Shown one piece after another: positions 2,219 to 32,568 of a stretch of 32,618 nt of DNA (positions are counted from its first letter, which is position 1; every line of letters starts with the position of its first letter). Under the pieces are notes generated by a model. That model was not told where the DNA came from. It saw only the letters and a program-made list of their open reading frames with translations, and did no database searches. The position numbers and the translations under genes are program-made. This DNA comes from Verrucomicrobiota bacterium (lineage in GTDB: Bacteria > Verrucomicrobiota > Verrucomicrobiia > Limisphaerales > Fontisphaeraceae), in the NCBI GenBank assembly GCA_037139415.1, contig JBAXGN010000084.1, positions 1 through 32,618 of the forward strand, in the 5' to 3' direction.

Positions 2219-5200
2219 TCACCGGTTCATGAGTTCGCGGACCAGGTCAGCACCACGAGCAAGATCGGCAGCGCGCAGTTCTACGACATTCCAGTGCAAT
2301 GGACCTTCCCGAAGGCGATTGCGGATGATGCGATCCCGACGAAGACGCGCACCCGTGTGAAACGCGGCGCCGTCCACGTAAATCGCAAGCCGCCGGGCGG
2401 ATACCGCAAAGTCGGCGATAGAAATAGGCGGAAGCCCTTCGGCAGGGGCCACAGATACTTGGCGTTCGGGGTGGAAACCATGCTGCTCAAACAGGCGGAG
2501 AAACCGTAACTCAAGTGGGGAACCAACACCCGCCGCGAAGGCTTCGAGCCAGGGACGAGGGTCGTTACTATCCCCGCGTTCGAGCGGCAATGGTTGCGGC
2601 GCACTGGCGGCCAACTGGTCCAGATCACCAATAATGGCGGGCCATCGCAATTGGTCGTGATAGCGTTGATTCTGATAGGACTTCAGACAACGGTAACAAG
2701 CGGTTTCACAGTTTGGGTGATTCAAATGCTCCAACGCTCGTTGGGCGATCAGATGAAATTCCCTGGCCATGCGGGCAATGTACCCGCTGCCGCCGACGCT
2801 GGGATCCACAAAGGTGAGGGATACCCGCTGGAAGGCACCGGCCTCAGCAGATTCCTGCCAAGGTCCCTCCGGTTCGAATTCAATTTCGCTGCCATCCAAA
2901 AGCAGGTGATGGCGGATGCCAATACGCAGCGCGGCTCCCAACGAATGCGTCCACTCTTCCAACGCGTTAGCGTCAAATCCCTCTGGAATGAAAGCAACCA
3001 ACCTCAGTACTTCGGCTTCCAGGCTGGTGACTATGCCGCTGGGCTGGGCAGGCTGCCCAGCGCGGGCGCAGGACTGGGAATGGCCATAAGGGTCGATGGC
3101 ATTGCCAGTGCGGGCGCGCCGCCGGGGGCCAGCATCCTCGGGAGGCGGAGCGATCAGCGTGTGGCCGCAGGTACTGCACAGGCAGAAGCCACGGGCATTC
3201 TGATGCAGCACCAAACCGCGCTCGCGTTCGGCTTCGGTAGGTTCCAGGCCTTCGTTAAGCCAGCGCACTTCCTCATTGCGGCTGAGCTGGAGCTGCCAAC
3301 CGGGACCAACGGACCAACGCTCAAACACTTCGCCATTCCATTGGGGGAAGAAAGCGACCAGGTTGCGGGCGCCTATCCGGTCCTCTTCATCAAGGACGGG
3401 CGCTTCATTGCGCTGGGCGACAAAGCCGCCGTATTCAAAGGCCGGGTAGGCGGGACCGGGCTCGGCCAATTGACAGCGGGGACATCGGGCGTGGTCGGCG
3501 GCATACCGGAGGCCACAACGGCGGCAGAGCCGGTAATTCCAAGGGGTATCGCTGCGGGGATTCCACGGAGAACTGGTATCCAAACCGATGACTTTCCAGC
3601 GGCGAGCCCGGGCATAGACGGGGGCGGCGGGCATGTACTGGTAGATGCCAAATCGGCGGGCCACGGAGACCAGATTTTCCTCATTCGGATCCCCCAGCAG
3701 CCGGAGGGAGGCCGGTTCGGAGGGGAATTCGTAGCCGGGCAGGATGCCAAATTCGGCGAATCGGCGCGGGGGATAGCCGGCAGACGCGTCATCGGCTTCC
3801 GGACGGTCATCTCGCCGGGCGACGGGCACACCCAGGAGGCGAGCTACCAGATCAGCGGCGCGCACCCCGGATTGCCGGCCCTGGAGGGTGGCGTAAAAAC
3901 GTTCGAGCGCGGCTCGGAGTTCCTGCACCTGGCGGGCGGTGCGCTGCACGACGTCGTTGATGCGGTTGGGGAGTGAGGCGAGGTGCGCCTGCAAGGCGGC
4001 GTCATCCAGGCCACAGGCGCGCAGGATATCCTCCCCCCAGGCGAGGCGAGCCAGTTGCAAGGCGTAATCGCCCTGGGCTTGGACGGCGGCAATCAAGGCG
4101 TTGACGGGCTCGGATTTGATTTCGCCCTGTTCGCTGACGTATTCGACCATGCGACCGGCGAGGCCGGGATTGGCGGCACCGAAGGCAATGGCGGCCAGGT
4201 GGCGGAGGATGACATCACGGTTGCCGAGCGAAATGGCGGGGGCGGGAATCTCGCCAGAGATCATTTCCTCGGGGTGATCGAAGAAATACTGGTCATGCGG
4301 ATTGCTGCGCGCATAACCGACCACAAGGCCGACCCGGGTGCGGCGACCGGCGCGGCCCCCGCGCTGGGCGTAGTTGTCGGGCCGGGGCGGGACGTTGCGG
4401 AGCATCACCGCATCCAAGCCGCCGACGTCAATGCCCATTTCCATAGTGGGCGAGCAGGCGAGGACGTTGAGCGGTGCCTCGGCGGCGGAAGCTTTAAAAC
4501 GATTCTCCAAATCCACGCGGCGTTCATTGGTCACCTGGGCGGTATGTTCGTCGGCAATCAGAGGCCGGAAGGTGGGCTGGCGCATGCGGCGGACGGTCCG
4601 ATGCTGCTCGACCTCGGCATCGGGCCACAGGGAGGCGACGCCATGACAACGCGGGCATGGGGCACCAGCATAAGCTCCGGCCAAGGGCCACGAACAAATA
4701 TTGCAGCGGAGGCGGTCCGCACCAGTGAAAAGGCGGAGGCGCAGGACTTCGGCGTTCAACTGGCACACCCGGGCGCTTTGGCGATGGCCCTGAACGTCGG
4801 ACGTGGTGGTAAAACTACCGCGCTGGAGGAATTGCAGGAGGGCGAGGCCGTCGTTGGCATCGGGCTGGGGAGCGCCGAAGCGGTGCAAAAGGTGTTCGAC
4901 CAGGCGCTGGAAACTCGGGGCGCGCCCGCCGGTGCCGGGGGCGCGCCAGGCATTTCGGATGGTAATGCCAAAGGGGGCCCCGGCATTATCGGCATACGGG
5001 AGCGGGCGGCCCTGGGGATCCACGGGCATGCCTTTGGGCTGGGCGACCTTGCGCTCCCAATCGGCCCGCGCAATGTAATCAGGACAGGCGGGGTTGCGCG
5101 GATGGTAGCGCATCATTTCGCGCGAGAGCATGCTGCGCACGCGGAGTTCATCGAGAAAACAACGGCAGAGATGGGTTAATTGGGCCTGGGTGATGCCCCA

Positions 5201-7507
5201 GTGGGCGCACAGGTCCCCGCCACGACTACGGACCTCCTCCTCCAAACCATCGTAGGCAATCGAAAGCACGCCGAGATTGATGAGAGTGCCGCGAAAGAAA
5301 GGAGTGACGGCGATTTCATCCAGCAACGGGGCCTCCTCCCAGGCGCGGACGCGGAGGCGCTCATCCTCGGTGAGGCGGCGTTCGGGATCGTCGGGGCCGT
5401 TGGGATTGTCGCCCGCCTGAACGCCAAGGTCCCCCAGCAGTTCGACAGCGCGTTGCAGGGAGAGGCGGGGGTTCGATTGCAAGATTTGGAAGAGGCGCCG
5501 CCGCATGCGGTCATAGCGGCTTGCGAAAATGATGAACCGGGCCTGGTGGGCGGCATCTTGGCGGCTGTCGCTGAAGATGAGCAATCGTTCCTTGCCATCG
5601 TGGCCCTCGCGGTCGGCGTTGGCGTCGGCCAGGGCTTCGACGAGGCCTTCGCCCAACACCTTGACGGCAGCGGAGGTGCCAAGGGCAACAGGGGTGATCA
5701 CGTTGCGGGTGCCGGCGGTGCCGCCGCAGCAAAGGCAACGGCTCCGGCCGTGAACGAGGCGGACCTGGAAGGGAAAATCCGAGGCCGTCAGACTGAAATT
5801 CAGAGTGTGGGGATCAAACGAACCCGAATGTACGGGATGCCCGCGGACCTGGGCAATGCGGGCGCGAGTGCCCCGGCGGGGAACGCGTGGCTCGCCGTCT
5901 TCCTCCTCCGGGTCTTCCTCGGGCTGGATGTCCATTTCCTGCCGGGCCACGTCGTAAATCATCCATTCCTCGTCGGCAGAGTCGGCTGAGTAAGGCTGCA
6001 TTTGCCCGGCCACCGGGTCGCCGCTGAGGCGAAGATAATCCGCACCACAGTTGCGGCAGAGGAACAATGGGGCGGTCTGGCGACCGCAATCGCAGACAGG
6101 CTGGCCCATGGGGTAGATGCGACCGCAGCCGCGATCGAGACAACGCACGAACTTCCAACCACCGCGAATGAGCCGGTGCGCGCGCAGGCGCAAACCGCCT
6201 GGGGCATCCTCCGGCAAAGCGGACCCCGCCAGCAGCACGGCCTCGACCTCGCGCCGAAGCGCGGCCCGGTCCGCTCCCCGGCGTTCGGGGATTTCGGACA
6301 GCATCAGGTCCACGATCTGGTTCAAGGACATGGGACGGGAGACAAGCCACTGGTTGAGCAGCCAAAGCAAACGGCAGTGCCGGGCGGCACGGGCAAGATC
6401 ACCAGTGGGAGCAACGCCAGAAGAGGCGGACAAGGCACGCTCCACGGAAGCGAGATTGGTTACGTTCACGGGCGAGGCGGCGGGCACGGCAGGGGCAAAG
6501 CGAGATTCGGCTGGAATGATGATGTCCTCCAATACCTCCCCGACCACGCGAATGGTGGCGGGCTGAACGCCGGTTAAACGGCTGAAGAACTCCTGGACGG
6601 CGGCATCCCGGTGCTGGTTGCGCTCCCCAGCGCTGAGATTTGAGTCCGCGATACTTTTGATGGTGGCAGACGTGCCAACGTTTAGGAGCGTGGGATAGCG
6701 GGCGGCGTGCTGGTCGGCAGGGACATCGGGCGACCAATCCTGTCGGGCGCGCGCAAGGTGCGCCCGGAGGCGACGTAACAACAGGGCGATATTGCTACCG
6801 AGCACACCGCGATAGGTATGCACTTCATCCATTACAAGGAACCTGCAACGGTGATTGGCAAAGAGATCATCGCGGTCTTTGGGGCGGATGAGCAAATACT
6901 CCAACATCATGTAGTTGGTCAGCAGGATGCGCGGAGGGTTGTTGCGCATGCGCTCACGCTCAGCTTGGTTGGTGCCACGATCGTATTTGCGAACGTCAAC
7001 CAGATCCGCCACACCGGCAGCTTCCAAGTATTCTTTAATGCGCTTTTCCTGGTCATTGGCCAGGGCGTTCATCGGATAGACCAGAATAGCCGTCAGACCG
7101 GTCCGCCGGAACTGATGCGCATCGGCGATGGCGTTCTGAATGACCGGAAGCAGGAAACACTCGGTTTTACCGGAGCCGGTGCCGGTGGTCACGACAAGAG
7201 GGGACGCTGCCGGGCCGTGCAAGTGGATGATGGCCTCGGACTGATGCAGGTAGGCGGTTTCAGAGCGCGAGCGGACGGCCATGGCGCGGGCCAGCGCGGG
7301 GTCCAAGGGCAGGCGGCTCCATGGTTCTCCAGCACGGAACGGGCGATGGGCCTGGTAAAAAGGTTCCTGGGCAAGGAAAAGCGGACGGTCAAGTTCGGCT
7401 TCCAAGGCCAGCCGGAGGGAACGGTCGCGGGCGCGGAACTCAGACCGGAGATAATCGCGATACTCATCAATGACGTGGTCGAGGGTGAGGATGGGGTTCA
7501 GGCTCAT
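2219..7507 (-). CDS. YprA/MrfA-type DEAD-box helicase with DUF1998 region and fused Vsr/DUF559-like nuclease tail
   Basis: This 1762-residue SF2 helicase shows Walker A TGTGSGKT (about 108-115), motif Ia ILVYPMNALANDQ, and a DEVH box (227-230). It also has motif III GTSAT, motif IV LLIFSDSRQDAAHQ, motif V LACSPTMEMGIDVGGLDAV and motif VI YAQRGGRAGRR. Several cysteine clusters (for example CNICSW...CPRCHG and CRRCGLRY...CPRCQL) lie between and after the motor lobes. A DUF1998-type segment, CETACYRCLKSYQNQRYHD, lies near the C terminus. The last 100 or so residues (IADFAVSARRLAIYVDGAAFH, written here across its core) resemble Vsr/DUF559 PD-(D/E)XK nucleases. Such helicases are the cores of DISARM, Dpd and Druantia. 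It lies 27 bp downstream of the KAP gene. The locus is very GC-rich compared with the cargo. A combined translocase and nuclease role on invading DNA is inferred. Confidence 0.9.
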   Translation of the reverse strand: MSLNPILTLDHVIDEYRDYLRSEFRARDRSLRLALEAELDRPLFLAQEPFYQAHRPFRAGEPWSRLPLDPALARAMAVRSRSETAYLHQSEAIIHLHGPAASPLVVTTGTGSGKTECFLLPVIQNAIADAHQFRRTGLTAILVYPMNALANDQEKRIKEYLEAAGVADLVDVRKYDRGTNQAERERMRNNPPRILLTNYMMLEYLLIRPKDRDDLFANHRCRFLVMDEVHTYRGVLGSNIALLLRRLRAHLARARQDWSPDVPADQHAARYPTLLNVGTSATIKSIADSNLSAGERNQHRDAAVQEFFSRLTGVQPATIRVVGEVLEDIIIPAESRFAPAVPAASPVNVTNLASVERALSASSGVAPTGDLARAARHCRLLWLLNQWLVSRPMSLNQIVDLMLSEIPERRGADRAALRREVEAVLLAGSALPEDAPGGLRLRAHRLIRGGWKFVRCLDRGCGRIYPMGQPVCDCGRQTAPLFLCRNCGADYLRLSGDPVAGQMQPYSADSADEEWMIYDVARQEMDIQPEEDPEEEDGEPRVPRRGTRARIAQVRGHPVHSGSFDPHTLNFSLTASDFPFQVRLVHGRSRCLCCGGTAGTRNVITPVALGTSAAVKVLGEGLVEALADANADREGHDGKERLLIFSDSRQDAAHQARFIIFASRYDRMRRRLFQILQSNPRLSLQRAVELLGDLGVQAGDNPNGPDDPERRLTEDERLRVRAWEEAPLLDEIAVTPFFRGTLINLGVLSIAYDGLEEEVRSRGGDLCAHWGITQAQLTHLCRCFLDELRVRSMLSREMMRYHPRNPACPDYIARADWERKVAQPKGMPVDPQGRPLPYADNAGAPFGITIRNAWRAPGTGGRAPSFQRLVEHLLHRFGAPQPDANDGLALLQFLQRGSFTTTSDVQGHRQSARVCQLNAEVLRLRLFTGADRLRCNICSWPLAGAYAGAPCPRCHGVASLWPDAEVEQHRTVRRMRQPTFRPLIADEHTAQVTNERRVDLENRFKASAAEAPLNVLACSPTMEMGIDVGGLDAVMLRNVPPRPDNYAQRGGRAGRRTRVGLVVGYARSNPHDQYFFDHPEEMISGEIPAPAISLGNRDVILRHLAAIAFGAANPGLAGRMVEYVSEQGEIKSEPVNALIAAVQAQGDYALQLARLAWGEDILRACGLDDAALQAHLASLPNRINDVVQRTARQVQELRAALERFYATLQGRQSGVRAADLVARLLGVPVARRDDRPEADDASAGYPPRRFAEFGILPGYEFPSEPASLRLLGDPNEENLVSVARRFGIYQYMPAAPVYARARRWKVIGLDTSSPWNPRSDTPWNYRLCRRCGLRYAADHARCPRCQLAEPGPAYPAFEYGGFVAQRNEAPVLDEEDRIGARNLVAFFPQWNGEVFERWSVGPGWQLQLSRNEEVRWLNEGLEPTEAERERGLVLHQNARGFCLCSTCGHTLIAPPPEDAGPRRRARTGNAIDPYGHSQSCARAGQPAQPSGIVTSLEAEVLRLVAFIPEGFDANALEEWTHSLGAALRIGIRHHLLLDGSEIEFEPEGPWQESAEAGAFQRVSLTFVDPSVGGSGYIARMAREFHLIAQRALEHLNHPNCETACYRCLKSYQNQRYHDQLRWPAIIGDLDQLAASAPQPLPLERGDSNDPRPWLEAFAAGVGSPLELRFLRLFEQHGFHPERQVSVAPAEGLPPISIADFAVSARRLAIYVDGAAFHTGARLRRDRIIRNRLREGPLHWNVVELRAADLARGADLVRELMNR

Positions 7508-7534: not shown

Positions 7535-9805
7535 TCAGAATGAATACCTTGCAACGAGAGGCACCCAGGTGCCAAGCAATTTCTGTTCTGGTTTAGCCCA
7601 ATCCTGAAGGTCCACTTGATTAAGTCCGTGGGCTAATTCGTTCCATTCTTCCAATGTGGTTGTATCTTCATACTTCGCTGAAAGAGCCTTCAAGTCTCCT
7701 TCTGATAATTGCCACTGAGAAGGCGAAGTCTCTAACAACCAAAGCAGCCATGGCCTAGCCAGTGCGGGAAAAGCTGAGCTTACAGCAAGTAACAGCATGG
7801 GGCAGCGATAAACTCCTGCAACATCTTCCGTCCCAAGGAAATTCGTCCATTCAATTTCACGCACACCCACGCGAATCAGACAATAGGTATTGGCTAGGCG
7901 CTTAACGGCTCGCGGGGTTTGGAAAAATGGTTGGAACCGGTGCATTTCGGAAATTTCTTTTTCAGATAAAACCAAACGTTTAGGATCCGATACCATATTG
8001 TCTGGTTTATCGGGTGTTCTTTTAATGTCCTCTATTGGTTTTAAAGGTGTTGACTCCAAAGTGGACGAGGTCTTGGGAAGAGTATTTTCGGTGAGCACGG
8101 GAGCGGGTTTAATTTGCTGGTGATCCGATTCATTTGCCGTGTTAGACGTGGTGGAACCCGTCCCGACTTGTGGCGCTGGCGGGAATACAGTATTGGTCCC
8201 TAGAGCAACAGGTTCAATTTCTGATGGTGTGCCTGGTTTTTCGTAATTAGTTACGGAAAGAGTTGCCTTGGAGCGCAATAAATTATTAATGAGGGTATCA
8301 AATCCATCTTTTTCGAGCCGCGGTAAATAGAACGGTACCTGGAAAATCTTTTCCAGGTAGTCGTGGGGTGTGGCGGGTCTACCAACCCGTCGATGATCTT
8401 GAGAGCCATTGGTCGCACCTCCCAATAAACGCGGATATTTATCCAACAAACTCTGCCGTAACCACCTTGGATCAACAGCCACAACCACCGCAAACAATGG
8501 AAATGCCAGAAGAAGATGCACAGCCTCTAATACCTCGATTACTCGCTCGGTCTGGCAGCGATCCAAATCATCAATATAAAGAACTATACGATCAATCTGT
8601 GGATAAAGATTGCTTTCTTGAGAGGGAAGCGCTCCCGAATCACTCCTTGAGGAGAGCAGTAAATTGCTTAGTTGCTCGAAGTCCTTCCTTATGAGGCTTA
8701 CCAGTTCCAGATGCCGCCGGTAATCGTCGGCCGAGGCGCGCGCCTTCAAAAAGCGCATCAACTGACGCCCCGGTGCCAGGTCTGCCAACTCGGCGTTAAT
8801 GGACTTAATCTTTTCCTCAGCTTCACTGAGGACATGCTGGGCAATTTCTTCTTCGTTTTTCCGGGAGGCTAGCAACTTTCGTTCCCCTTGTGCTTCATCC
8901 CGAGTTTCGCGATCGTTGCGTATTTTTTTAACTTCCGTATAAGCTTTCTCCAACTGGCATACTAACGAATTACCGGTTTTCACTTGAGCGGAAAGCCATG
9001 CTGAAAACAATCCAATGGCAGTTCCTGCTTGGACGACTGTTTTTCCAGCGCCATCAAGTAAATCCTTAATAGGCTGCCAGCCATGTATTGAAAGCCATCC
9101 AATTCCAATGGGTGCGGTTATGGCTACAACCAAAAGCATATAACGCCTCCAACATTTTGGCCCCGTTAGCACTGCCCAGGTTATGGTTTGAATTCGTCCT
9201 TGCAATGATTTCAATTCGGTCACCCGCTTTTCAAGTTCATCAAAGGATGTTTTCAGTTTTGGTAACCCAAGAGAATCTGCCATATCTTGTAACTGCTTAT
9301 GCAGTGTGGCATCCTTCGTTATTAAAATCCCAAGATCGTCCAGCAACTCTCGTACTTTATTCTCTTGCTTGACCCTTTGCATGGTCGCTTCGCGCAATTC
9401 GTCCTCCGCCTTGACCCGGGCAGCTTTAGCTCTTTCAAGGGCTTCTCTAGCTTCGGCTGCTAAAGCACTTTGGTTGGTCAGATCTTCCCTTAACTTTGCG
9501 ACCCTGGCTTTTGAAGCCTCACCCTTGTCCTTTTCCAAATGTTGAAAAAGCTGATCGAATATCTCACACACCAAATTCGCCCATAGATTCGTATCTAAAT
9601 AATGCCAGGCATTAAACCGTATTTGCACAATCCGGGAGTAAAAAACCTCACCGGGATGTTTTGACAAATCGTCAAGCCTTTCGTCGAGCAAATCAATGAA
9701 ATGGGTTTTACCAGCACCCCACGCGCCGAATAATCCTATTGAAAGGGGCATGTAGGTGTCCTTGGCCGCAATGAGCTGTGCAAGGTGTTGCGCATAGACC
9801 CTCAC
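7535..9805 (-). CDS. KAP-family P-loop NTPase with membrane segments
   Basis: Read from GTG at 9805, the protein has 756 residues. It has Walker A GLFGAWGAGKT (about 25-35), the KAP-typical RFNAWHY (63-69) and Walker B IVLYIDDLDRC (407-417) followed by VVAVDPRWL. A long insertion between them holds heptad-rich helices (about 92-205 and 284-345) around two hydrophobic segments (about 222-241 and 255-273), as in membrane KAP ATPases such as the PifA group. A low-complexity linker follows at about 490-590. KAP NTPases are recurrent phage-exclusion proteins. The GTG start is doubtful: the same frame is open and protein-like (FIPDRTVYGPRVPG and more) up to 10078 with no ATG, GTG or TTG. The gene is therefore probably the 3' part of a frameshifted SLOG-KAP fusion. 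Confidence 0.85.
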   Translation of the reverse strand: MRVYAQHLAQLIAAKDTYMPLSIGLFGAWGAGKTHFIDLLDERLDDLSKHPGEVFYSRIVQIRFNAWHYLDTNLWANLVCEIFDQLFQHLEKDKGEASKARVAKLREDLTNQSALAAEAREALERAKAARVKAEDELREATMQRVKQENKVRELLDDLGILITKDATLHKQLQDMADSLGLPKLKTSFDELEKRVTELKSLQGRIQTITWAVLTGPKCWRRYMLLVVAITAPIGIGWLSIHGWQPIKDLLDGAGKTVVQAGTAIGLFSAWLSAQVKTGNSLVCQLEKAYTEVKKIRNDRETRDEAQGERKLLASRKNEEEIAQHVLSEAEEKIKSINAELADLAPGRQLMRFLKARASADDYRRHLELVSLIRKDFEQLSNLLLSSRSDSGALPSQESNLYPQIDRIVLYIDDLDRCQTERVIEVLEAVHLLLAFPLFAVVVAVDPRWLRQSLLDKYPRLLGGATNGSQDHRRVGRPATPHDYLEKIFQVPFYLPRLEKDGFDTLINNLLRSKATLSVTNYEKPGTPSEIEPVALGTNTVFPPAPQVGTGSTTSNTANESDHQQIKPAPVLTENTLPKTSSTLESTPLKPIEDIKRTPDKPDNMVSDPKRLVLSEKEISEMHRFQPFFQTPRAVKRLANTYCLIRVGVREIEWTNFLGTEDVAGVYRCPMLLLAVSSAFPALARPWLLWLLETSPSQWQLSEGDLKALSAKYEDTTTLEEWNELAHGLNQVDLQDWAKPEQKLLGTWVPLVARYSF

Positions 9806-10046
9806 ACCAAGGGAATCATCCAGGGGTAAACCTGGTACACGCGGCCCATATACGGTGCGATCCGGAATAAATGCCGCAAAAGTGCTTTCGTAATTATTTT
9901 GCGGAGTATTAGGTTGCGGCCGATGGCTGTGCAGATATCGGGTTACACTTTCGGCAATTTCGTGAAAAGCTTCATCCTGACGCGCAACTTCAAGTGCGCG
10001 GTCAACTTCGACTGGATTGAACGGACCAGTAAATAGGAAAATTTCC
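9806..10046 (-). other. Coding extension of the KAP frame overlapping the SLOG gene 3' end; probable frameshift
   Basis: The KAP frame stays open upstream to a TGA at 10079-10081 and encodes natural-looking protein (FNPVEVDRALEVARQ, then DEAFHEIAESVTRYLHSH, then FIPDRTVYGP). No ATG, GTG or TTG occurs in this stretch. Over the same bases the SLOG frame turns into a K/R/L-rich tail (KLRVRMKLFTKLPKV) that does not look like its preceding helical repeats. The switch point lies near the A4/T3 run at 10036-10046 and corresponds to a -1 (or +2) shift. No canonical slippery heptamer is in the right phase, so a single-base indel, real or a sequencing error, is more likely than programmed frameshifting. 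Confidence 0.6.
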
Positions 10047-11478
10047 GAGCTGCATTGTCGTTTGAATCCCTGGCGACCTCAAGTAACAGTCGAATTACTT
10101 TTTCCAGTCCGATCGAGCCAGTGAGTATTCTTGTGGCATCATGGGCTATGCGGGGCTGACATAGCGCATACAGAACGTCATAGGAAAGTGATTCTCCCTG
10201 CCGGGATTTATCCAGCAAAAGGCAGAGGTCCTCGATTAGCTCTGGTATGGGAATTATGCGAAGCACCCTCAGCACACTCCAAACATCTTTAAACTTTTCT
10301 GATTTTAATTGCGTTTTTAAACTTTGGAGTATATCTGAATTATCCTTTCTCGAAATTACTCTGGCTAAAGTTGCAACTTCTAAACCGGGATCGGTAATGC
10401 TTTTTTCAACTGCTCTGGATAGATACGAGACCTTTCGTTGATAAAGGCCCGCGAGTGTCCAAAACCGTACATTAACATTCGGTTCCTTTGCAACATCAAG
10501 ATGGGTCAAGATAAGGTTGCGGTTCAATTCCTCCTCGGGATCAGCCCAAATAATGCAGCTAAGCATCCAGGACCGAATGGAGGGCAACAACTTCTTATCT
10601 CTTTCCGCCACCACGGTATCTGCCTCAAATTGCGGTCCAAAACGATCCGTAATTTCTTGCCGCAGTCGTCCAGCTAGAACATGTTTATCATCAGTACTGT
10701 AACCTATTATATCAGTGAGTAAATCAGCTCGTTGTTTTTCATTACCATCCACCAGAACACGGACGATGCTGTCGAATCGGCTATCGACAGGGGACTCGAA
10801 ACGATGAATTTCTGGTTTTATTATATCAGCACCAAGAGAGAAATGAAGTTTGAGAAGGCGAACAATGTCACTCGCCACAGCTGGCATTTCGTTTTTCAAA
10901 CTTTCGTAATCTTCCCGAGTAATGCCTGCAATTGGGTTAACACCCCAATTCTCCAAAATACGCGAATAAAACTTATTAGCATCTTTATGCCCGCTAGCGC
11001 TTGTGCCGGCAACAGGGAGGACTGGCTTTCTTAATCGCAATGCCATTTCCCCGGTCTTCAAGGTGCCACCCAAACCACCAAGCAAAACGACCGCGTCAGC
11101 CTTCTCAATTGACATTTGCCAGGCTTCGCCGTCTGTAGGCGCAGTAACATGCTGACCACCATGAAACTCCGGGGCGTCTCCTTCTTTCATGCATTGGATA
11201 AGCCGGGAGGAAAGCGGCGTATCTGCTTTTAGCTTTTCTGCAAAAGCTTTCGCTACAAAATAATCCACCCCAGGCCATCCACCAGTTACCAGTCCAAAGT
11301 CGGCTTCAGCTAACTCTTGGCCGAACTGCTCACATGTTTTCACGAGTTTATCCGATAATCGTCTGCCAGAGCCGGCGACTAATATCCATCGGCGAACGTT
11401 GGAAATGCCTAAGGCCCCAGGCGGTGGAAGATTTGCGACTTTAGGTTTTTCCTCCGGATTCATATCGTTAGAATTCAT
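9943..11478 (-). CDS. SLOG-domain protein with HEAT-like helical C-terminal region
   Basis: This 511-residue frame has a Rossmann-like SLOG/LOG-family domain at about 30-212. Glycine motifs are VAGSGRRLSDKLV (34-46), GLVTGGWPGVDYFVAKAF (62-79) and VVLLGGLGGTLKTGEM (130-145). SLOG domains bind nucleotides or NAD-derived signals; in Thoeris ThsA the SLOG domain senses a cyclic ADP-ribose product made by TIR proteins. Residues 220-500 are all-helical and HEAT-like. The start at 11478 overlaps the stop of the methyltransferase-remnant frame (11468) by 11 bp. Together with the KAP gene it forms cassette 4, and the two were probably one polypeptide before a frameshift near 10040. A TIR-to-SLOG signal from neighbouring cassette 3 is a testable inference. 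Confidence 0.8.
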   Translation of the reverse strand: MNSNDMNPEEKPKVANLPPPGALGISNVRRWILVAGSGRRLSDKLVKTCEQFGQELAEADFGLVTGGWPGVDYFVAKAFAEKLKADTPLSSRLIQCMKEGDAPEFHGGQHVTAPTDGEAWQMSIEKADAVVLLGGLGGTLKTGEMALRLRKPVLPVAGTSASGHKDANKFYSRILENWGVNPIAGITREDYESLKNEMPAVASDIVRLLKLHFSLGADIIKPEIHRFESPVDSRFDSIVRVLVDGNEKQRADLLTDIIGYSTDDKHVLAGRLRQEITDRFGPQFEADTVVAERDKKLLPSIRSWMLSCIIWADPEEELNRNLILTHLDVAKEPNVNVRFWTLAGLYQRKVSYLSRAVEKSITDPGLEVATLARVISRKDNSDILQSLKTQLKSEKFKDVWSVLRVLRIIPIPELIEDLCLLLDKSRQGESLSYDVLYALCQPRIAHDATRILTGSIGLEKVIRLLLEVARDSNDNAARKFSYLLVRSIQSKLTAHLKLRVRMKLFTKLPKV

Positions 11479-11689
11479 GCCTTGTTCCTTTCTTTCGCTT
11501 GTCCCAGTAGGGGGCGTGCTTTTTGGTGAACGCGGTAAGCCCGATGGATTGTAACTCGTCGAAGGTGGTGAGGCATTGGCGTGGAGCGTCTTTGTAGCTG
11601 GAGTGACTTAAGGCGTGCGCGTATTGGTCGCCCGTGTTGGGACGAGCCGCAATTGTGCTGCCTTGGGCGATGATGGGACTAAGGCTCAT
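11468..11689 (-). pseudogene. Junction 3 scar: helicase start codons fused to methyltransferase C-terminal fragment
   Basis: A 73-codon open frame starts ATGAGCCT, giving MSLSPI, like the intact helicase (MSLNPI). After a short linker it becomes a piece of methyltransferase C-terminus: DQYAHALS, HSSYKDAPRQCL and FDELQSIGLTAFTKKHAPYW. The intact methyltransferase has the same order at about 28602-28745; 38 of 43 aligned residues match, with one in-frame three-residue deletion. The frame overlaps the stop of the upstream STAND gene by ATGA and overlaps the SLOG start by 11 bp. It carries no complete domain, so I read it as a recombination scar between cassettes 3 and 4. It could still be translated and may couple translation of its neighbours. 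Confidence 0.8.
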
Positions 11690-14079
11690 AGGTGCGTACG
11701 GAAAATGATCTTTTTCGCGGCGGCAAGTTCTTTATCGCGGCGGTGATAGCCGCAATCGTGGATGAGTTTCTCGGCGGTAGCGAGGTCAGTCTGTGGGTTC
11801 TCCCAGGGATACGCTTTCTCGCTGAAAAACAGATGCGCACGGCTTATGTGAATGTCGGCCAAGTGCAGGCGCATGCGACTTGGGGCGGCGATTTCCCAGG
11901 CTTTGTTTAACGCCATCGCAGCAGCATCCATAGTACGCACAAAGCAATAACATTCAGCCAGCGCCAAATAAACACGAGGTTGTTCAAGTAAAATCCCAGC
12001 ACCCTGTTGAAAACAACCGAGAGCGTTTTGTAACATTTGAATCGCGCGCTCAACTTGCTTGGGCTTATTACTTAACCGCCCTTGTGCAAATAAAGCCCTT
12101 CCAAGACACCAGTTTAGCATTCCACAGTAAATATTTTCACGCTCGGGTGGCTTTCGCAGAATGTTAAGCATTGTTTCCGCCTCACGTTGTATTTCCGCGT
12201 ATTTCTTTTTTGTCTCAAGAAACATGCACCAACGAATCACCGAGGTCGCAAGTCGATTCCGATCAGAACTGTTAGCGCACTGACGACGCAACTTGTTCAC
12301 CACTTTAAAATATTCCTCTGCAGTGGCCAAATCTCCCGTCTGAATAAAGAGGTGCGCGTATATTGATCTATTATTCATTCTCAAGGACTGGTCTTTGCTT
12401 TTGTCGGCATATCCAATGCCCTTCTCTGCAAACTTAAATGCTTTGGGTAATTCACCCTGAAATGAGTACACGACAGAAAGCATGCCAGCAACAATGGCGC
12501 TTTGAGAATAGTTTCGCATTTTGCTGAAAACCGAAAGTGCCGCTTCAAAACATTTACTGGCTTCTGGCAGTTTCACAAGCGCGCGAAGACAGTAGCCAGT
12601 GTTTAAGAGTACGGTGGCACGGGAGGAGTCTTGAAGGCCTGCCTTTGGAATCCAGTTTGGCCCCCACTCGTCAAAAAAGCCGCGCATCGCAGCTAAGGTC
12701 GAGGAAAAACCGCCAAGCTTTGTTGTGCTATAATAAGCTTCCCCACGTTGAATGCGCTTCAGATACAATTCTCTTAACGCCTTTTCATGACCACCTGCAT
12801 GGCATGCGTGCGTCACAGCTTGGTAAAGTGGTTGCAGATCGTCGAGGGTTGGCTGTGGTTTGTCTGGCGTATTGTCCCTGAGATATTCGTAGAGTCGGTG
12901 GTGGGCCAGGCACCATGCATCTGGATACTTCGTTCGGAATTGTTCTGCGAAGAACTCGCGAATGAGCGGATGGGTGTCTAATGAGAATTGAGTTTCATCG
13001 ATCTTCTGAAAGGAGATGAGGCCGAGGTCGGAGATGGCAGAAAGGGTGATATTCCAGTCGTCGTCTCCCAAGTCAATCAGGGCTTCGGTCAAGCCGAGAA
13101 TTGCTGGCTCGCGACGTAACGCAGCAAGACAACCTGAATCTGCTGGGCGATCGAACAGGCCCAGCAGGCGCAATACGGCGAGCATTCGGAGACCGTCTTT
13201 ACCACTCCGTTTAAACAATTTCACGTAGGATGCGATAACGCGAAAAGCATGACCGCCCTGGACTTGGCCGTCGGCCTGCCTGAACTTTATACGGTCGTGG
13301 TGACGAATATCGCCTCTGTGTGCCCGAGTAATATAAGTTCCCAACAAGTTTAGCGTAAGTGCGTGCCCGTTGACCTCGTGAACGAGCTGCATAAAGTCTT
13401 CCTTTGGTCCGTGAACACCAAGAGTTCTTAGTAGTGCGATTGCTTGGTCTGTGGAGAGTGAGGAGAGCTGTGGATAATTACCTTCTGCTTGTTCAAGCTC
13501 GCCAAGATAAGCAACGGTGTTATTCATCCATGGATCCAGATTAACGATGCCTACACGGGTCGTGACTATGCAAAGACCATGCATGGCCTGTTGAGCCAAA
13601 CATCGAAGGAAAATTGGGAGCGCATCATTCTCAGGAAGCATGCCGCCCAGTGTCTGTAAAGGTTCTAGGCCATCTAACACCAAAAGGCTTGGGCGAGCAA
13701 CGACATACTCAGCTAGTTTTGTCCCTTTGCTCTCGTAGGACGCCGGGCTGTTTGCGAGGTGTTTTCCGTCTTCCCCGCCAAAAAATGCAAGAGCGGCTGC
13801 GATAAATTGGTCGGAAGAACTGGCGTTATTAGTGTTTGTTCCTTGATCGTAAAAGGACCAGTCAAAGACACGCTCGCAACCTGGCCATGCGGAGGCCGCT
13901 CGACGTGCCATCCACTCGACAACGAGCGAAGTTTTTCCAGCACCACCCCATGCCACAATGGCTAGTATGTGCGTCTTGGGATCAACCCAAGCTTTATCGA
14001 GACGCTCTAGGTCGGCTTCACGACCAACGAAATGTTTCGCACCACGACGAAGGCGGGTGGGCGCAATTTGAGGGCTCAT
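11686..14079 (-). CDS. STAND (NB-ARC-like) ATPase with TPR-like C-terminal region, cassette 3
   Basis: This 797-residue protein has a Walker A AWGGAGKTS (43-51), Walker B SLLVLDGLEPL (131-141) and the STAND sensor CIVTTRVG (170-177). A winged-helix-like stretch follows, then C-terminal helical repeats of TPR type (about 450-790). STAND ATPases act as switches that oligomerise on sensing a phage component and activate an effector. No effector domain is fused; the effector is probably the TIR-EAD protein encoded 29 bp upstream. It is a close paralogue of the STAND in cassette 2: 42 of 56 residues match around the P-loop. Sequence upstream of the two starts is also similar (GTAGGC-CATCGGT). Its stop overlaps the remnant helicase start by ATGA. 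Confidence 0.87.
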   Translation of the reverse strand: MSPQIAPTRLRRGAKHFVGREADLERLDKAWVDPKTHILAIVAWGGAGKTSLVVEWMARRAASAWPGCERVFDWSFYDQGTNTNNASSSDQFIAAALAFFGGEDGKHLANSPASYESKGTKLAEYVVARPSLLVLDGLEPLQTLGGMLPENDALPIFLRCLAQQAMHGLCIVTTRVGIVNLDPWMNNTVAYLGELEQAEGNYPQLSSLSTDQAIALLRTLGVHGPKEDFMQLVHEVNGHALTLNLLGTYITRAHRGDIRHHDRIKFRQADGQVQGGHAFRVIASYVKLFKRSGKDGLRMLAVLRLLGLFDRPADSGCLAALRREPAILGLTEALIDLGDDDWNITLSAISDLGLISFQKIDETQFSLDTHPLIREFFAEQFRTKYPDAWCLAHHRLYEYLRDNTPDKPQPTLDDLQPLYQAVTHACHAGGHEKALRELYLKRIQRGEAYYSTTKLGGFSSTLAAMRGFFDEWGPNWIPKAGLQDSSRATVLLNTGYCLRALVKLPEASKCFEAALSVFSKMRNYSQSAIVAGMLSVVYSFQGELPKAFKFAEKGIGYADKSKDQSLRMNNRSIYAHLFIQTGDLATAEEYFKVVNKLRRQCANSSDRNRLATSVIRWCMFLETKKKYAEIQREAETMLNILRKPPERENIYCGMLNWCLGRALFAQGRLSNKPKQVERAIQMLQNALGCFQQGAGILLEQPRVYLALAECYCFVRTMDAAAMALNKAWEIAAPSRMRLHLADIHISRAHLFFSEKAYPWENPQTDLATAEKLIHDCGYHRRDKELAAAKKIIFRTHL

Positions 14080-14108
14080 CGGTGGAGCGCTGGAGGAAAC
14101 CGATGAGC

Positions 14109-15407
14109 CTACTGAGGGTTTACCAAATCGCTGCGGTCGGCGCAGATGCCGGCGATGACTTCGCCTAGTTTTGCTCGTTTGTTAGCGCGGTCGAGCAGTT
14201 CGATAACGCAGTCCACGAGAGGCCGTTGGGCCATGTCGTCTTCCATTTTGGTCTGAAAAAGATCAAACCAAATCGTGGCGATTTCAGTCCGACTCATCCG
14301 CTTTGTGATACGGCGTCGGAGTTCGCCCAGGGAAAGCGCAGCTAGCGTGGGGGCGCAGGGAACTGCTCCTGGGGGGAGCGTAGTGGATGTCGTCGTGGTC
14401 GTTGTCGTGGTGCCAAGACCAGCGGCGCTTTCGCCCTCCTGCTGGAGAACGGACAGTAACTTCCCAAGTCCGGCGGCGAAGTCCGTACGAAAATCGGCGT
14501 AGAGCCGGTCGCGAAGCAAGGTGGGAATGTCGCAGTCCTCAATTAGGACTGGGAGGACGGCGACGCCCTGGTTGGATATCTGCGCTATAAGGGCCGAGTT
14601 CAGTTCGACCTGTACCCACGGCGAAGTGACCGATGCCTTGGAGAGGACAATAACAAAATAGTCAGAATCCCTTAGGCCGCCAGAGATTTTGGAGACGATT
14701 GAATCGCCAATTTGGATTTCCTGCTCGTCGAGCCAAACGCTCAGTTTGTGCTTTTTTAGTTCGGCGACCAGTTTACGAACAAAGGGTTTATCCTTGCTTG
14801 AGTGGCTGATGAAGACACGCGGTTGGGTGGTTGCTTTCATAAATTGATGTCGTTGCCTACCGGGCAGATCATCCTCGATTCGAATGAACTTGTTCTCGGG
14901 GAGATTCTCTTGGGAACAAATCTGGTTCAGTTGGACAAGTTTCGCATAAGGATCACCGGCGAATTTCCTCAATGTACACGCCACAGTTGTTCGCCCGCAG
15001 TTGTCTCCCTTCAATATCCAATAAAGAGCCAATCGTCCGTGAAAGAGTTTTGCTCTAGCTGGCACGAGTGAGGGATCGCGGATTGTATAACTGGTGGGAA
15101 GGATGAGCACGAACATGATCCAAGGGATTCCGTGATTCAGTCCTTCGGACCAGCGATAACGGAGTTTGCCTAAATCATCCGGCACAGCATCGTGCGCAAC
15201 GTGAAGTCGGCTAACGTGTTCGGCCTGGAAAACGTAGGCCACACCTCCACCAACGGGTTGGAAGTTTTCGGGCTGTTGTTCTGGCTCCCACGCGACACGT
15301 AGGCGTTCCCCTATGGGGACCTCGATGTAGTAAAGGTCACCTTTCAGTTTGCCATCTGCAAATCGGGAATCGAAAATTACAAGTTCTGGAGGGTGTTCGG
15401 GAGCCAT
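14109..15407 (-). CDS. TIR-domain protein with C-terminal effector-associated (EAD-like) domain
   Basis: This 432-residue protein has an unrecognised N-terminal domain (1-190). A TIR domain follows at about 196-325 (RVFISHSSKDKPFV, WLDEQEIQIGDS, LSKASVTSPWVQVEL), with the candidate NADase glutamate Glu268. A linker with eight consecutive threonines (333-340) leads to a helical C-terminal domain (about 355-432) resembling the effector-associated domains that link effectors to STAND ATPases. TIR effectors in bacteria cleave NAD+ or make cyclic ADP-ribose signals. The likely partner is the STAND ATPase encoded directly downstream, which has no effector of its own. The gene starts 28 bp after the first TIR gene. 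EAD assignment is by helical pattern and context, and is less sure than TIR. Confidence 0.85.
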   Translation of the reverse strand: MAPEHPPELVIFDSRFADGKLKGDLYYIEVPIGERLRVAWEPEQQPENFQPVGGGVAYVFQAEHVSRLHVAHDAVPDDLGKLRYRWSEGLNHGIPWIMFVLILPTSYTIRDPSLVPARAKLFHGRLALYWILKGDNCGRTTVACTLRKFAGDPYAKLVQLNQICSQENLPENKFIRIEDDLPGRQRHQFMKATTQPRVFISHSSKDKPFVRKLVAELKKHKLSVWLDEQEIQIGDSIVSKISGGLRDSDYFVIVLSKASVTSPWVQVELNSALIAQISNQGVAVLPVLIEDCDIPTLLRDRLYADFRTDFAAGLGKLLSVLQQEGESAAGLGTTTTTTTTSTTLPPGAVPCAPTLAALSLGELRRRITKRMSRTEIATIWFDLFQTKMEDDMAQRPLVDCVIELLDRANKRAKLGEVIAGICADRSDLVNPQ

Positions 15408-15435: not shown

Positions 15436-16869
15436 TCATTTGTTTATCGCCTTTTTGATTTCTTTGCAGATTCTGACCCATGCCACATCTCGCTCGGCCT
15501 TCATCTGGGCCAGCGGTTGTTCTGGGGAACTCAAGGCTTGGTAGTCCTTGAGGGCGGTTTCCTCGTAAGCAGAGGCTCGGATAGGGATCCACAGGATGCG
15601 AACACCACCTTTTTCTGCCTGAAGCAGGAGTGGCCCGAACTCATGCTCATGGATAAAGTCAGAAGCGAGAAAATTGGGTGAGACCAGCAGTACAGCCACT
15701 TTTGTGTAGGCGATGGACTCCTGTATCTCGGCGAACCAATCGGATCCTGAGGCGATCTGCTTATCTGACCATTTGGTGAGCTTTCCGGCTCGTTCGAGTG
15801 GCTTCAGGTGTATGAGTAACTGGTCCAGGAACTTTGTGTCCTTGTGGCTGTAGCTGATAAACACGTGGTCTCGCTGAAGAACGTTTGTACCGCTGGTCGT
15901 GGCTTGTATGCGATTGGGTGGTGAACTTTCGGTTTCACAGCTACCACTTACGATGGCTGCGCGTTCAATAATCTCGTCTATTGCTGCTACAGATGCTCGT
16001 GCAACATCTGCCAGTTTCGAATAGAAAGTCGCAGGGTATCCATGCTCGTGCGGGATGACCTGTTTTGGACCGGAAGCCAGGAAATCGGGGAGACGTGGAA
16101 AGAGTCCGCCGCCCAACAGGCCGGCCGCGAAGTTGTCCACGCGGGCCTGTCGTTCCGTGTACCACGGACCGCCACGGGGACATTGCCAGGAGAGTTCAAA
16201 GATCATATCGAGCCAGAGGCCCTGGCTTGGACAGAGTCTTTGCGAAAAGCCGGTGGGCCACAGTCGCCATACTGAGGTGGCGATGGCTGGCGGGAGTTGA
16301 TAAAGGATATCGCCGCCTTCGTGCACCAATTCGGCAAGCTGCGGGATAGGAACTGGGCGGATATCGTCGCCCAAAGCATAAACAGAATGATAACGATGGA
16401 GGCCAAAGCGGTATGCCACTGGCCTGCCGTCGGCGCTGAGAATTGGATTCCCCTGGACGCTGTTTATCGGGAAAGCAGCTACCAATGGGGCCCAGTCTGG
16501 CCCGAGTAACTTGGCTGGCTCTCGGGAAAGCCCAGAGCCAGCCCAGAGTAATCTGGACCGTTGCGGCATGATGGGGAGTTTGGGGAGAGCGGATCGCACC
16601 ATAGGGATGCGCCACTGCAGAAGGACACACTCGACCGGGCAGAACTCATCAATGAGGCGCTCGAAGCGTGAGCGAAGCTTCGTGAGATTGTGTTCCCACT
16701 GGTGAGCAGTTTTGGCCTTTGCCGGGATGTACCACGGAAGGACTTTCGCGCCGGGTTCTTCTTGGAAAGAAGTACCTGCGGTTACATTAGTGCCATCCTC
16801 CAACTGTGGACCGCTACACCAGCCTGTGTTGGCGGCGAAACCGGGAATTGCATTATGGTCCGAGTTCAT
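15436..16869 (-). CDS. TIR-domain protein with large unrecognised N-terminal domain
   Basis: This 477-residue protein has a C-terminal TIR domain (about 333-477): DHVFISYSHKDTKFL, WSDKQIASGSDW, VAVLLVSPNFLASDF and then HEHEF, which offers Glu408/Glu410 as the catalytic acid. Residues 50-310 form a domain I do not recognise (WEHNLTKLRSRFERLIDEF, then tryptophan-rich stretches such as ATSVWRLWPTGF). The first 30 residues, including the start codon, come from the repeat that recurs at 22027-22223, so the gene appears to have captured a junk-derived 5' end, or its true N terminus was lost. It is the first gene of cassette 3, followed by a second TIR gene and a STAND ATPase gene. NAD+ depletion or signalling is inferred. 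Confidence 0.8.
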   Translation of the reverse strand: MNSDHNAIPGFAANTGWCSGPQLEDGTNVTAGTSFQEEPGAKVLPWYIPAKAKTAHQWEHNLTKLRSRFERLIDEFCPVECVLLQWRIPMVRSALPKLPIMPQRSRLLWAGSGLSREPAKLLGPDWAPLVAAFPINSVQGNPILSADGRPVAYRFGLHRYHSVYALGDDIRPVPIPQLAELVHEGGDILYQLPPAIATSVWRLWPTGFSQRLCPSQGLWLDMIFELSWQCPRGGPWYTERQARVDNFAAGLLGGGLFPRLPDFLASGPKQVIPHEHGYPATFYSKLADVARASVAAIDEIIERAAIVSGSCETESSPPNRIQATTSGTNVLQRDHVFISYSHKDTKFLDQLLIHLKPLERAGKLTKWSDKQIASGSDWFAEIQESIAYTKVAVLLVSPNFLASDFIHEHEFGPLLLQAEKGGVRILWIPIRASAYEETALKDYQALSSPEQPLAQMKAERDVAWVRICKEIKKAINK

Positions 16870-16975
16870 AACAGAAGGTAGATAGTCTCATGCGGTGGTC
16901 ACAATGGCAATTGTTTCATTCAAAGCTCTATGTTTGATCCGCTCGCTTTCACCAAAACAAAGCGAGTCGAACCGC
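16780..16975. repeat. Junction repeat copy A (196 bp)
   Basis: This direct repeat matches copy B at 22027-22223 in the same orientation. By eye there are about 17 differences, including one small indel, or roughly 91% identity. One edge abuts unique TIR-gene DNA, the other a helicase 5' remnant. It contains a start (MNSD...) used by the TIR gene and, further along, the end of another short frame ending ...IAIVTTA. No transposase, terminal inverted repeat or target duplication was seen, so it is not a recognisable insertion sequence. Confidence 0.85.
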
Positions 16976-17075
16976 TGAGGGCATTGAATCGACGGAAAGA
17001 GCGGAGCTTGAATTCCAGGTGACCCCGGAACTCATCAATGATGTGATCGAGGTTGATGATGAGGGGGAGGCTCAT
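16976..17075 (-). pseudogene. Junction 2 scar: helicase 5' remnant
   Basis: On the minus strand from 17075 the frame reads MSLPLIINLDHIIDEFRGHL, corresponding to the intact helicase start MSLNPILTLDHVIDEYRDYL. Nucleotide similarity is strong for the first 50 bases and fades within about 100. It then runs into repeat copy A, where the frame continues briefly and stops. The ATG overlaps the stop of the cassette 2 STAND gene as ATGA. About 30 helicase codons are left, so it is a scar, not a gene. The stretch 16870-17071 has no other gene. Confidence 0.8.
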
Positions 17076-19639: not shown

Positions 19640-19671
19640 CGGCGGTGCGCCGGGTTCATTGACCGATGGGC

Positions 19672-21903: not shown

Positions 21904-22116
21904 TCAGCCTTTCTTCCATCCTCGCTTAGTCTTTGTCACCGGCTGCTCCGCGTGCAAATTTCCCCTTCCGGCGGGGGCGGTGGTGGTTTGGAAATCGAAG
22001 AGGGCTGTTTGTTGTGAACGGTTAACGGTTATGTTAGTGGCATCCTCCAACTGTGGACCGCTACACCAGCCTGTGTTGGCGTCGAAACCGGGAATTCCAT
22101 TAAGGTCCGAGTTCAT
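21904..22116 (-). pseudogene. Junction 1 scar: repeat-derived start fused to methyltransferase C-terminal fragment
   Basis: This 70-codon frame begins in repeat copy B (MNSDLNGIPGF). At about 22016 it changes to the extreme C-terminus of a methyltransferase: ALFDFQTTTAPAGRG and AEQPVTK against ELFDFETTTAPAGSG and AEQPVSK in the intact gene (19 of 25 residues). The two parts meet at a perfect 7-bp tandem duplication, aacggttaacggtt (22017-22030). It ends 9 bp before the cassette 2 cyclase gene, the same place the intact methyltransferase end occupies before cassette 1 (17 bp). No domain is complete, so I read it as a recombination scar. Confidence 0.8.
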
Positions 22117-22223
22117 AGTAGACGGCAGATAGTAGTCATGCGGTGGTCACAATGGCAATTGCTTCATTCAAAGCTCTATGCCTGATCCGTTCGCTTTCTC
22201 CAAAACAAAGCGAGTCGAACCGC
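22027..22223. repeat. Junction repeat copy B (197 bp)
   Basis: This is the second copy of the repeat at 16780-16975, in the same orientation. Here it joins a helicase 5' remnant to a methyltransferase 3' remnant. Within the shared MNSD... frame, five of six base differences between copies change the amino acid, so the two copies show no sign of protein-level constraint. A 7-bp-stem hairpin (cgcagccaacggctgcg, 22221-22237) sits at its edge next to the helicase remnant. Confidence 0.85.
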
Positions 22224-22648
22224 AGCCAACGGCTGCGATAGTTCAGATGATGATCAACTAACTCGGCAATGGCGTTCTGAATGACCGGTAGTAGGAAACA
22301 CTCGGTTTTACCGGAACCGGTGCCGGTGGTAACCACAAGCGGCGACGCAGTCGGTCCGAGCAGGTGATGAATGGCTTCTGACTGCTGCAGAAACGCAACT
22401 TCGCTGCGCGAACGTGCCGCCATGGCTCGGGCAATCGCAGGATCAAGGGGCAAGTGATTCCATGACTCGCCGGCGCGGAATGGGCGATGCGCCTGATAAA
22501 AGGGCTCCTGAGCAAGGAACAGTGGTCGATCAAGTTCGGTTTCCAGTGCCTGCCGCAAGGCCCGGTCACGGGCGCGGAATTCCGATTGGAGGTGGTCGCG
22601 ATACTCTTCGATGACATGATCCAGAGCGATACTAGGATTTAGGCTCAT
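22136..22648 (-). pseudogene. Junction 1 scar: truncated helicase N-terminus (first 128 codons)
   Basis: This 170-codon frame has residues 1-128 that match the first 128 residues of the intact helicase at 108 positions (84%), including the P-loop TTGTGSGKTECFLLPVIQ. Homology stops abruptly at 22265. The remaining 42 codons come from other DNA, mostly repeat copy B, ending ...ALNEAIAIVTTA. The DEVH box and all later motifs are gone, so it cannot be a helicase. The ATG overlaps the subtilase stop as ATGA. At 84% identity it is too diverged for a recent local duplication and more likely came from a related second system. A stable P-loop fragment acting as a regulator is a remote alternative. Confidence 0.85.
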
Positions 22649-26184: not shown

Positions 26185-26623
26185 CGGTTTTGCCAATAAG
26201 ATATTGGAATAAAAGACTGCTAGCCAGCAGAAAAGCGATTCTTTGAAGGAATGTGCACGGACCGGCTGGAATTGCCAAATTAGATGGTAAAGTGGAGCGC
26301 TAAAGCGGAACAACACCATGCCGGCCAACCAAGGCCATACTTTGGTAATTTATGATCGGCGTGACATATGAATTTGTGAAAGAAAACCGACCGCTTGTGC
26401 GACTTCTGTGTAGCAATTGACCAAATCGTTGTTCCGCAAATCATCAATTGGTATTTCAAGAACGAAGACACCGATCAGGGGCATAACGCTCCACTCGATC
26501 CACTCCCCTTACCAGAATACCATCCTCAAAATTGAGTTCGCGTGACATGGGACTCTTAAATCTTCAGCGTTATAGAACCCGTGTTTCCACTACTTGGATA
26601 GTTGAATGCTAGGTTTATCCTTA
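26185..26623. other. Intergenic region within cassette 1
   Basis: These 439 bp separate the possible HEPN gene from the AAA gene. They hold the decayed small frame described separately (26350-26548) and otherwise no recognisable gene. The region is the largest gap in the minus-strand run, so a promoter for the AAA-subtilase pair might lie here; I saw no convincing -35/-10 pair or terminator hairpin. Confidence 0.5.
26350..26548 (-). pseudogene. Short decayed frame of unknown origin
   Basis: A frame starting at 26548 reads MSRELNFEDGILVRGVDRVE and stops at 26456. A second, overlapping frame from 26484 reads MPLIGVFVLEIPIDDLRNND and continues to a stop at 26350. Joined by one frameshift near 26480 they would give about 65 residues of natural-looking protein. 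I do not recognise the family. It could be a remnant of a small gene lost from cassette 1, or chance. Confidence 0.3.
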
Positions 26624-32467: not shown

Positions 32468-32568
32468 ACGTGACTTGCCATCTTCGGTAAGCAGTAATGA
32501 GCCACCGTCTTCAGCGCCTTCACGAGTCTGAACCGCTTCGACGGCTTCAATGCGGGCATAGCCTAGTT

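Follow-up and report, generated by a model that had tools for sequence, protein, structure and literature searches.

The window analyzed here, a stretch of 32,618 nucleotides that is the entire contig C84 of a 7.9 Mb Verrucomicrobiota genome in 378 contigs, encodes a helicase with a nuclease-like C-terminal tail, and raises the question of which class of defense system such a protein belongs to. The first-pass annotation had read the helicase and a methyltransferase as a two-gene restriction core of a class that could be assigned to neither DISARM nor Druantia. The fifteen main genes of the window, the helicase among them, lie on the minus strand and also encode two TIR-domain proteins, STAND-type ATPases, IetAS, an Mrr-type nuclease, SLOG, KAP and M78 proteins, a NERD nuclease and a large methyltransferase. 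On the plus strand, the 3' end of an SMC/LmuB-like ATPase gene (3-437) is cut by the contig end.

The helicase and its nuclease tail

The helicase gene and its tail-encoding part are:

2219..7507, minus strand: ArmC-like YprA/MrfA-family helicase-nuclease, 1762 aa, with RecA1, RecA2, OB-CON-DUF1998 and Vsr-type nuclease parts
2219..2554, minus strand: Vsr/EDxHD-type nuclease tail of the helicase, aa 1652-1762, with E1666, D1699, D1712, H1717 and D1725

The open reading frame matches the Pfam families DEAD, Helicase_C and MZB (DUF1998). The structure model of the N-terminal part (pLDDT 89) aligns to MrfA 6znp with a Z-score of 27.3 (457 aa, 4.0 Å), and that of the C-terminal part gives Z-scores of 15.2 to MrfA and 11.8 to DrmB. 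Helices 352-429 lie behind RecA1, and the protein contains several CxxC pairs; ARMADA helicases carry a BrxA-like domain after RecA1, zinc modules and a MarR-like domain, and BrxA is not among the PDB matches listed for the N-terminal part, which says nothing on the absence of the domain. No relative of A2 was found in viral contigs, and phages gave one distant match.

The view that this is a YprA-family helicase with its own Vsr-like nuclease was borne out. As judged by the predicted fold, family profiles and retained acidic residues, the last ~110 residues are a Vsr-type nuclease, with IADFAV at residues 1697-1702 and AIYVDGAAFH at 1708-1717. Profile searches with the tails of this helicase family matched Vsr, DUF559 and MTES_1575. 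The single-sequence Pfam match is weak (MTES_1575, E-value 0.0097 for the whole protein and 0.0041 for the tail alone) and lies below the curated cut-off. Among 38 tails, comprising the window and 37 relatives (40 picked by a required DG motif, three of them dropped), MTES_1575 was matched in 26, DUF559 in 24 and Vsr in four at E ≤ 0.01, where the MTES_1575 and DUF559 counts are inflated because the relatives were picked by motif. The 38-tail profile matched the PDB entries 3hrl (E 6.5e-6), Vsr 1cw0 (3.5e-5) and I-Bth0305I 3r3p (5e-4).

In the AlphaFold model of residues 1196-1762 (mean pLDDT 83.5), the tail matches I-Bth0305I with a Z-score of 10.8 (90 aa, 2.5 Å), and Vsr with Z-scores of 9.6 (1cw0; 99 aa, 2.9 Å) and 8.8 (1vsr; 90 aa, 2.0 Å). 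Read along the tail, the residues E, D, (DG), H and D are similar to the EDxHD signature of I-Bth0305I. A 49-row helicase alignment, which consists of the window and 48 of 52 listed relatives and for which the DG motif was no criterion, shows E1666 in every row and D1699, F1700, D1712, G1713 and D1725 conserved at ≥90%; in L050, one of the four relatives left out, the E1666 equivalent is lost. Judged from sequence and model together, the tail is a predicted-active Vsr nuclease, a hallmark of ARMADA: Bell et al. (2025, PMC12458937) describe the helicase-Vsr fusion as typical of ARMADA and the fused nuclease of Types I and II as predicted to be active.

We also considered whether the helicase could be a Druantia-type DruE that lost its partner genes and kept a vestigial nuclease tail. 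A Vsr-like C-terminal domain is reported on Druantia I and II helicases as well (Bell et al., PMC12458937), and the best PADLOC models for the window helicase are DruE1 (391 bits) and then DruE3 (374 bits). However, genuine DruE1 proteins score far higher (1843 and 1759 bits; genuine DruE2, 1096 and 1058), and we set the DruE1 label aside because E. coli ArmC scores alike on the same DruE models (324-348 bits); no PADLOC result of this analysis contains an ARMADA model. The locus resembles Druantia I, II and III in having a YprA-family helicase with a fused C-terminal domain, and differs from them in that: (i) all 12 rows of Druantia I, II and III and related helicases split off from the window helicase at an SH-aLRT of 100 in the tree described below; (ii) no match to the partners DruA-D, DruM/F/G or DruH is listed for the 17 window proteins; and (iii) its Vsr residues are kept, whereas Druantia has an inactive Vsr (I and II) or a PLD (III), the catalytic residues being lost in all four Druantia I/II helicases examined (L115, L116, L118 and L119). 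With the partner genes unmatched and the helicase outside the Druantia-type rows, the annotation was right not to assign the core to Druantia, and we regard the DruE reading as very improbable.

Most of the Vsr catalytic residues are also gone from four (L111, L114, L050 and L039) of the ten ARMADA I helicases with forward gene order among the 50 rows, so that nuclease-dead tails occur outside Druantia I/II as well.

The ARMADA gene trio and the helicase tree

ARMADA consists of a YprA helicase, a BrxHII-like helicase and a PglX-like methyltransferase (Bell et al. 2025, PMC12458937). The corresponding partners of the window helicase are:

28406..32569, minus strand: ArmB-like DrmMI/PglX-like DNA methyltransferase with an NPPW motif; first ~80 codons on contig C184
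C184:12020-15226: BrxHII-like helicase (DrmD 353 bits, BrxHII 237 bits)

Residues 1-81 of the methyltransferase (PADLOC DrmMI, 278 bits) are encoded at the end of C184 and residues 80-1433 at the right end of the window. Because the two ends hold complementary parts of one gene, we take the contigs as neighbors that, on this sequence evidence, evidently abut inside the methyltransferase gene; a point against this is the short inverted-repeat-like sequence at both ends. The gene order across the contig break is thus BrxHII - methyltransferase - helicase. The closest plasmid homologue of the helicase, from Pseudanabaena ABRG5-3 (56% over 98%), belongs to an operon of a DrmD/BrxHII-like helicase, VapBC, a methyltransferase, a DUF559-type endonuclease (on the other strand), a GajB-like helicase and the YprA helicase. 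Identity to the proteins of this operon is 55% for the window methyltransferase and 60%, along the whole protein, for the BrxHII homologue on C184 (match at 12020-15193). The trio is linked in L007, L022, L023 and L025.

These results revise the first-pass annotation. Its two-gene core lacked the third ARMADA gene, the full-length BrxHII-like helicase on C184, which is part of a linked trio in relatives too; the class that it called unassignable is ARMADA, since this gene set with a Vsr-tailed YprA helicase has already been described (PMC12458937); and the methyltransferase is not the immediate neighbor of the helicase, as 20.9 kb of other genes separate the two. An unassigned helicase-nuclease thereby becomes a recognized ARMADA system, to which a divergent branch is added.

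A GT2 glycosyltransferase gene (C184:15223-16278, in L017) overlaps the BrxHII stop and sits before the methyltransferase; the same gap holds VapBC in L007 and a NYN gene in L108, which suggests that it is a second cargo slot.

The locus resembles DISARM in its YprA-family helicase, DrmD/BrxHII-like helicase and DrmMI-like methyltransferase. In contrast to DISARM, its DUF1998 part (MZB) is fused to the helicase and not a separate DrmB, and its nuclease is fused and not a DrmC; PADLOC listed neither a DrmB nor a DrmC (PLD) match among the 17 proteins of the window that were scanned. That the locus is not DISARM, and that no DrmC-type nuclease was found in the window, as the annotation had it, is supported.

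To place the helicase, genome contigs were scanned for relatives and the best 80 of 588 were kept. Eight of these (L021-L026, L028 and L060) show best-segment identities of 44-63%, and none of the other 72 exceeds 36%. A tree was built from 50 chosen rows (tail excluded, quick search, SH-aLRT without bootstrap, unrooted), in which the window, Pseudanabaena and five of the eight close relatives, the other three being fragments, form a seven-row clade (SH-aLRT 100) whose stem measures 1.22 changes per column. The clade lies on the ARMADA side of the tree, outside both the 21-row Type I core and the three Type II rows, which include E. coli ATCC 8739 ArmC and form a clade of their own. FastTree recovers the same window clade, and the deep forks among the ARMADA groups are unresolved in either version. 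The tree sets the helicase apart from Druantia and puts it on the side of the already described ARMADA. We assign the window helicase to a divergent ARMADA clade, new here.

The long stem, the position outside both types and the drop in identity beyond the clade would also suit a third separate YprA class, neither ARMADA I nor II, defined by the window clade. We consider this unlikely: the clade has the same three genes as ARMADA, its grouping with the Type I core is 6.7 log-likelihood units worse when forced and is not rejected by the AU test (p 0.115), and Bell et al. may already place it in Type I, where they describe a reversed gene order in cyanobacteria (PMC12458937).

With reversed-order ARMADA Type I, the locus shares the Vsr-fused YprA helicase, the BrxHII-like helicase and the PglX-like methyltransferase, and the BrxHII-methylase pair precedes the helicase, an order that has been described in many archaea and cyanobacteria (PMC12458937). 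It differs from Type I in the deep clade of its helicase, in the genes and scraps that fill the 20.9 kb before it, and in the GT2 gene between BrxHII and the methyltransferase. The BrxHII - methyltransferase - YprA order is common to the locus and ARMADA Type II (E. coli ATCC 8739, L101/L102). Type II was rejected as an assignment: the window has no UvrD/GajB-type gene (RelE-GajB) after the helicase, where M78 and NERD genes follow instead, its helicase is 351 aa shorter, and the Type II rows are a separate clade.

The M78 (ImmA/IrrE-like) and NERD-nuclease genes (525-2197) lie directly after the helicase gene, an arrangement reminiscent of TALON, in which an ARMADA-like YprA is paired with a NERD nuclease (PMC12458937). 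That the helicase and these two genes form a TALON-like system is nevertheless scarcely credible. TALON helicases are described as ending in an inactive RNase H fold (PMC12458937), whereas the window helicase ends in a Vsr domain; Pfam scans of the window revealed no TPR-CSD or TBP gene; and no ORF in the listed loci had the M78 or the NERD query as its best match, neither gene being found beside the helicase in the relatives scanned.

Defense genes between the methyltransferase and the helicase

The region of about 21 kb between the methyltransferase and the helicase contains four groups of defense-like genes, here called cassettes A to D, which are split by scraps of the two flanking genes. 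From the methyltransferase towards the helicase, the features are:

27507..28388, minus strand: cassette A, Mrr_cat restriction endonuclease (Pfam E 7.9e-8)
26624..27520, minus strand: cassette A, 298-aa protein without Pfam, PADLOC or NCBIfam match
25189..26328, minus strand: cassette A, IetA AAA ATPase (PADLOC IetA 228 bits)
22645..25176, minus strand: cassette A, IetS subtilase (PADLOC IetS 142 bits); stop overlaps ATG of helicase scrap 1
22253..22648, minus strand: helicase 5' scrap 1, covering aa 1-132 (protein E 2.8e-70), 78% identical in nt to the full helicase gene and followed by unrelated sequence
22026..22223, minus strand: 198-bp repeat, copy 1; 91% identical to 16779-16975
21922..22020, minus strand: methyltransferase 3' scrap, 33 C-terminal aa (protein E 2.0e-9)
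19672..21894, minus strand: cassette B, 740-aa protein without Pfam, PADLOC or NCBIfam match
17072..19639, minus strand: cassette B, STAND/TPR-like ATPase (weak Pfam AAA_16, TPR_12); stop overlaps ATG of helicase scrap 2
16998..17075, minus strand: helicase 5' scrap 2, 26 aa (protein E 2.0e-4; 83% nt over 47 nt, E 1.5e-6)
16779..16975, minus strand: 198-bp repeat, copy 2; nt match to copy 1
15436..16869, minus strand: cassette C, TIR-domain protein (Pfam TIR_2 E 6e-12); start uncertain, overlaps the repeat
14109..15407, minus strand: cassette C, TIR-domain protein (Pfam TIR_2 E 2.4e-32)
11686..14079, minus strand: cassette C, STAND NTPase with TPRs (Pfam nSTAND1, TPR); stop overlaps ATG of helicase scrap 3
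11669..11689, minus strand: helicase start scrap 3, 7 residues, at the preceding gene's stop and just before a methyltransferase scrap; proves nothing alone
11501..11635, minus strand: methyltransferase 3' scrap (protein E 8e-22); a stretch of 139 nt is 79% identical to the full gene
9943..11478, minus strand: cassette D, SLOG (LDcluster4) protein (Pfam E 1.4e-9)
7535..9805, minus strand: cassette D, KAP P-loop NTPase, distantly QatA-like (Pfam E 1.2e-32; PADLOC QatA 71 bits)

At the end of cassettes A, B and C, the final stop codon and the ATG of the next helicase scrap overlap as ATGA; in cassette D, the KAP gene ends 27 bases before the intact helicase. Every helicase and methyltransferase scrap lies between cargo groups and on the coding strand. 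A point against stacking is that no methyltransferase scrap is seen at the junction before cassette C. In a dinucleotide-preserving shuffle control with three queries, 0 of 100 shuffles reached 2e-4. A cruder control of 20 codon-block shuffles gave four matches at E ≤ 0.05, and the many weaker scrap-like matches are therefore meaningless. A copy of the 198-bp repeat stands behind each of helicase scraps 1 and 2; no third copy was found in the genome, and no match in the other loci compared.

The N-terminal parts of the STAND genes in cassettes B and C (19319-19675 and 13762-14112) are 71% identical in DNA, and the two cassettes may share ancestry.

The corresponding gap was analyzed in relatives. 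At 27 loci a methyltransferase ORF precedes the helicase in the same orientation, with a gap of more than 700 bp in 19 and of at most 102 bp in eight; these gaps are distances between stop-to-stop ORFs and hence approximate, and the L078 methyltransferase may not be a partner. All six window-clade loci with an upstream methyltransferase (L007, L022, L023, L025, L026 and L060) have a slot content of 1.3-5.5 kb: HEPN-RES in L022, MqsA-like and M78 genes in L023, an ATPase_2/DUF234 gene (PDC-S27) in L025, GajB-like and DUF559-type genes in L007, and a BrxC/D-like ATPase among others in L060; the L026 slot ORF tested gave no family. In L028, 4.6 kb before the helicase include a NERD-AAA-TPR protein, and beyond them is only a methyltransferase 3' scrap. 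As predicted from gene content, the methyltransferase-helicase gap is a carrier of accessory, differing defense genes.

At L029:2213-11259, IetA and IetS stand directly before a distant YprA helicase (27% identity), as they do in cassette A before helicase scrap 1.

The scraps differ from the intact genes by 17-22% of DNA positions, and therefore the donors were related rather than identical loci, or the events are old. This divergence (78-83% nt identity) bears on a serious rival to stacking, namely that the repeated pieces are the wreck of tandem ARMADA operons with inner deletions, or that the contig is misassembled. Deletion between tandem operons would also leave helicase 5' and methyltransferase 3' scraps, and L060 combines a methyltransferase 3' scrap with an internally deleted helicase (aa 3-151, then 1512-1744). 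Assembly duplicates, however, would not be expected to diverge as the scraps do, and no BrxHII piece and no further piece of methyltransferase or helicase was found in the window. We hold this explanation to be possible, though not probable.

Stepwise stacking of cargo remains our preferred reading. Defense genes embedded in defense operons are already known from tgvAB, which lies inside a type I R-M operon (PMC11411939; Payne et al. cited there). The locus resembles this type of embedding in carrying defense genes inside a multi-gene defense operon, and differs from it in having several tandem groups split by scraps of the operon's own flanking genes. The helicase-nuclease architecture is known; the four-cassette stack with scars inside an ARMADA operon looks new, as no description of stacked cargo in ARMADA or similar systems was found in the mostly open-access literature covered, including the text of PMC12458937 as searched by term. 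The scraps provide a readable fossil record of how defense genes gathered inside an operon and, with the cassettes, speak to the question of how defense islands grow without an obvious mobile element.

Proposed mechanism and origin of the stack

Based on these observations, we propose with considerable confidence that the locus is an ARMADA-type restriction system whose slot holds at least four accessory groups, gathered, on the simplest reading, by recombination. Defense by E. coli ARMADA II requires all four genes, together with the Walker motifs in both ArmA and ArmC and the ArmB NPPW motif, and is direct, without growth arrest (PMC12458937); the sections of that article covered here contain no report of a Vsr-tail mutation. 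By analogy with this system, the trio would act together as follows: (i) the methyltransferase would mark host DNA; (ii) the two motors, BrxHII and YprA, would engage phage DNA that lacks the mark, with YprA probably travelling on DNA under its OB-CON-DUF1998 canopy; and (iii) the helicase's own Vsr-type tail would cut or nick the DNA, replacing a separate DrmC nuclease. In Druantia III, DruE has been described as a helicase-nuclease effector (PMC13192584).

The cargo groups, at least four in number, would have been added one by one through repeated homologous recombination with related ARMADA loci, at the 3' end of the methyltransferase gene and the 5' end of the helicase gene, leaving scraps of both between the groups. 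More generally, we tentatively suggest that the methyltransferase-helicase gap might be a recombination-driven capture slot, where the conserved flanking coding sequence supplies the homology for swapping and stacking without an integrase. If so, one restriction operon could turn into a growing, translationally coupled array of different defense systems.

Two further loci concern the distribution of these helicases. A second genome of the same order (G652) carries a helicase relic on contig C193:40102-42669 (L126, L127), which is 83% identical over aa 795-1649 and has neither head nor tail; no partner genes were found within 24000-60000 of its contig. In Pseudanabaena (L007:25255-35131), the ARMADA helicase gene and a DruE3-like helicase gene converge directly on each other, which may be a further pairing of ARMADA with Druantia III.
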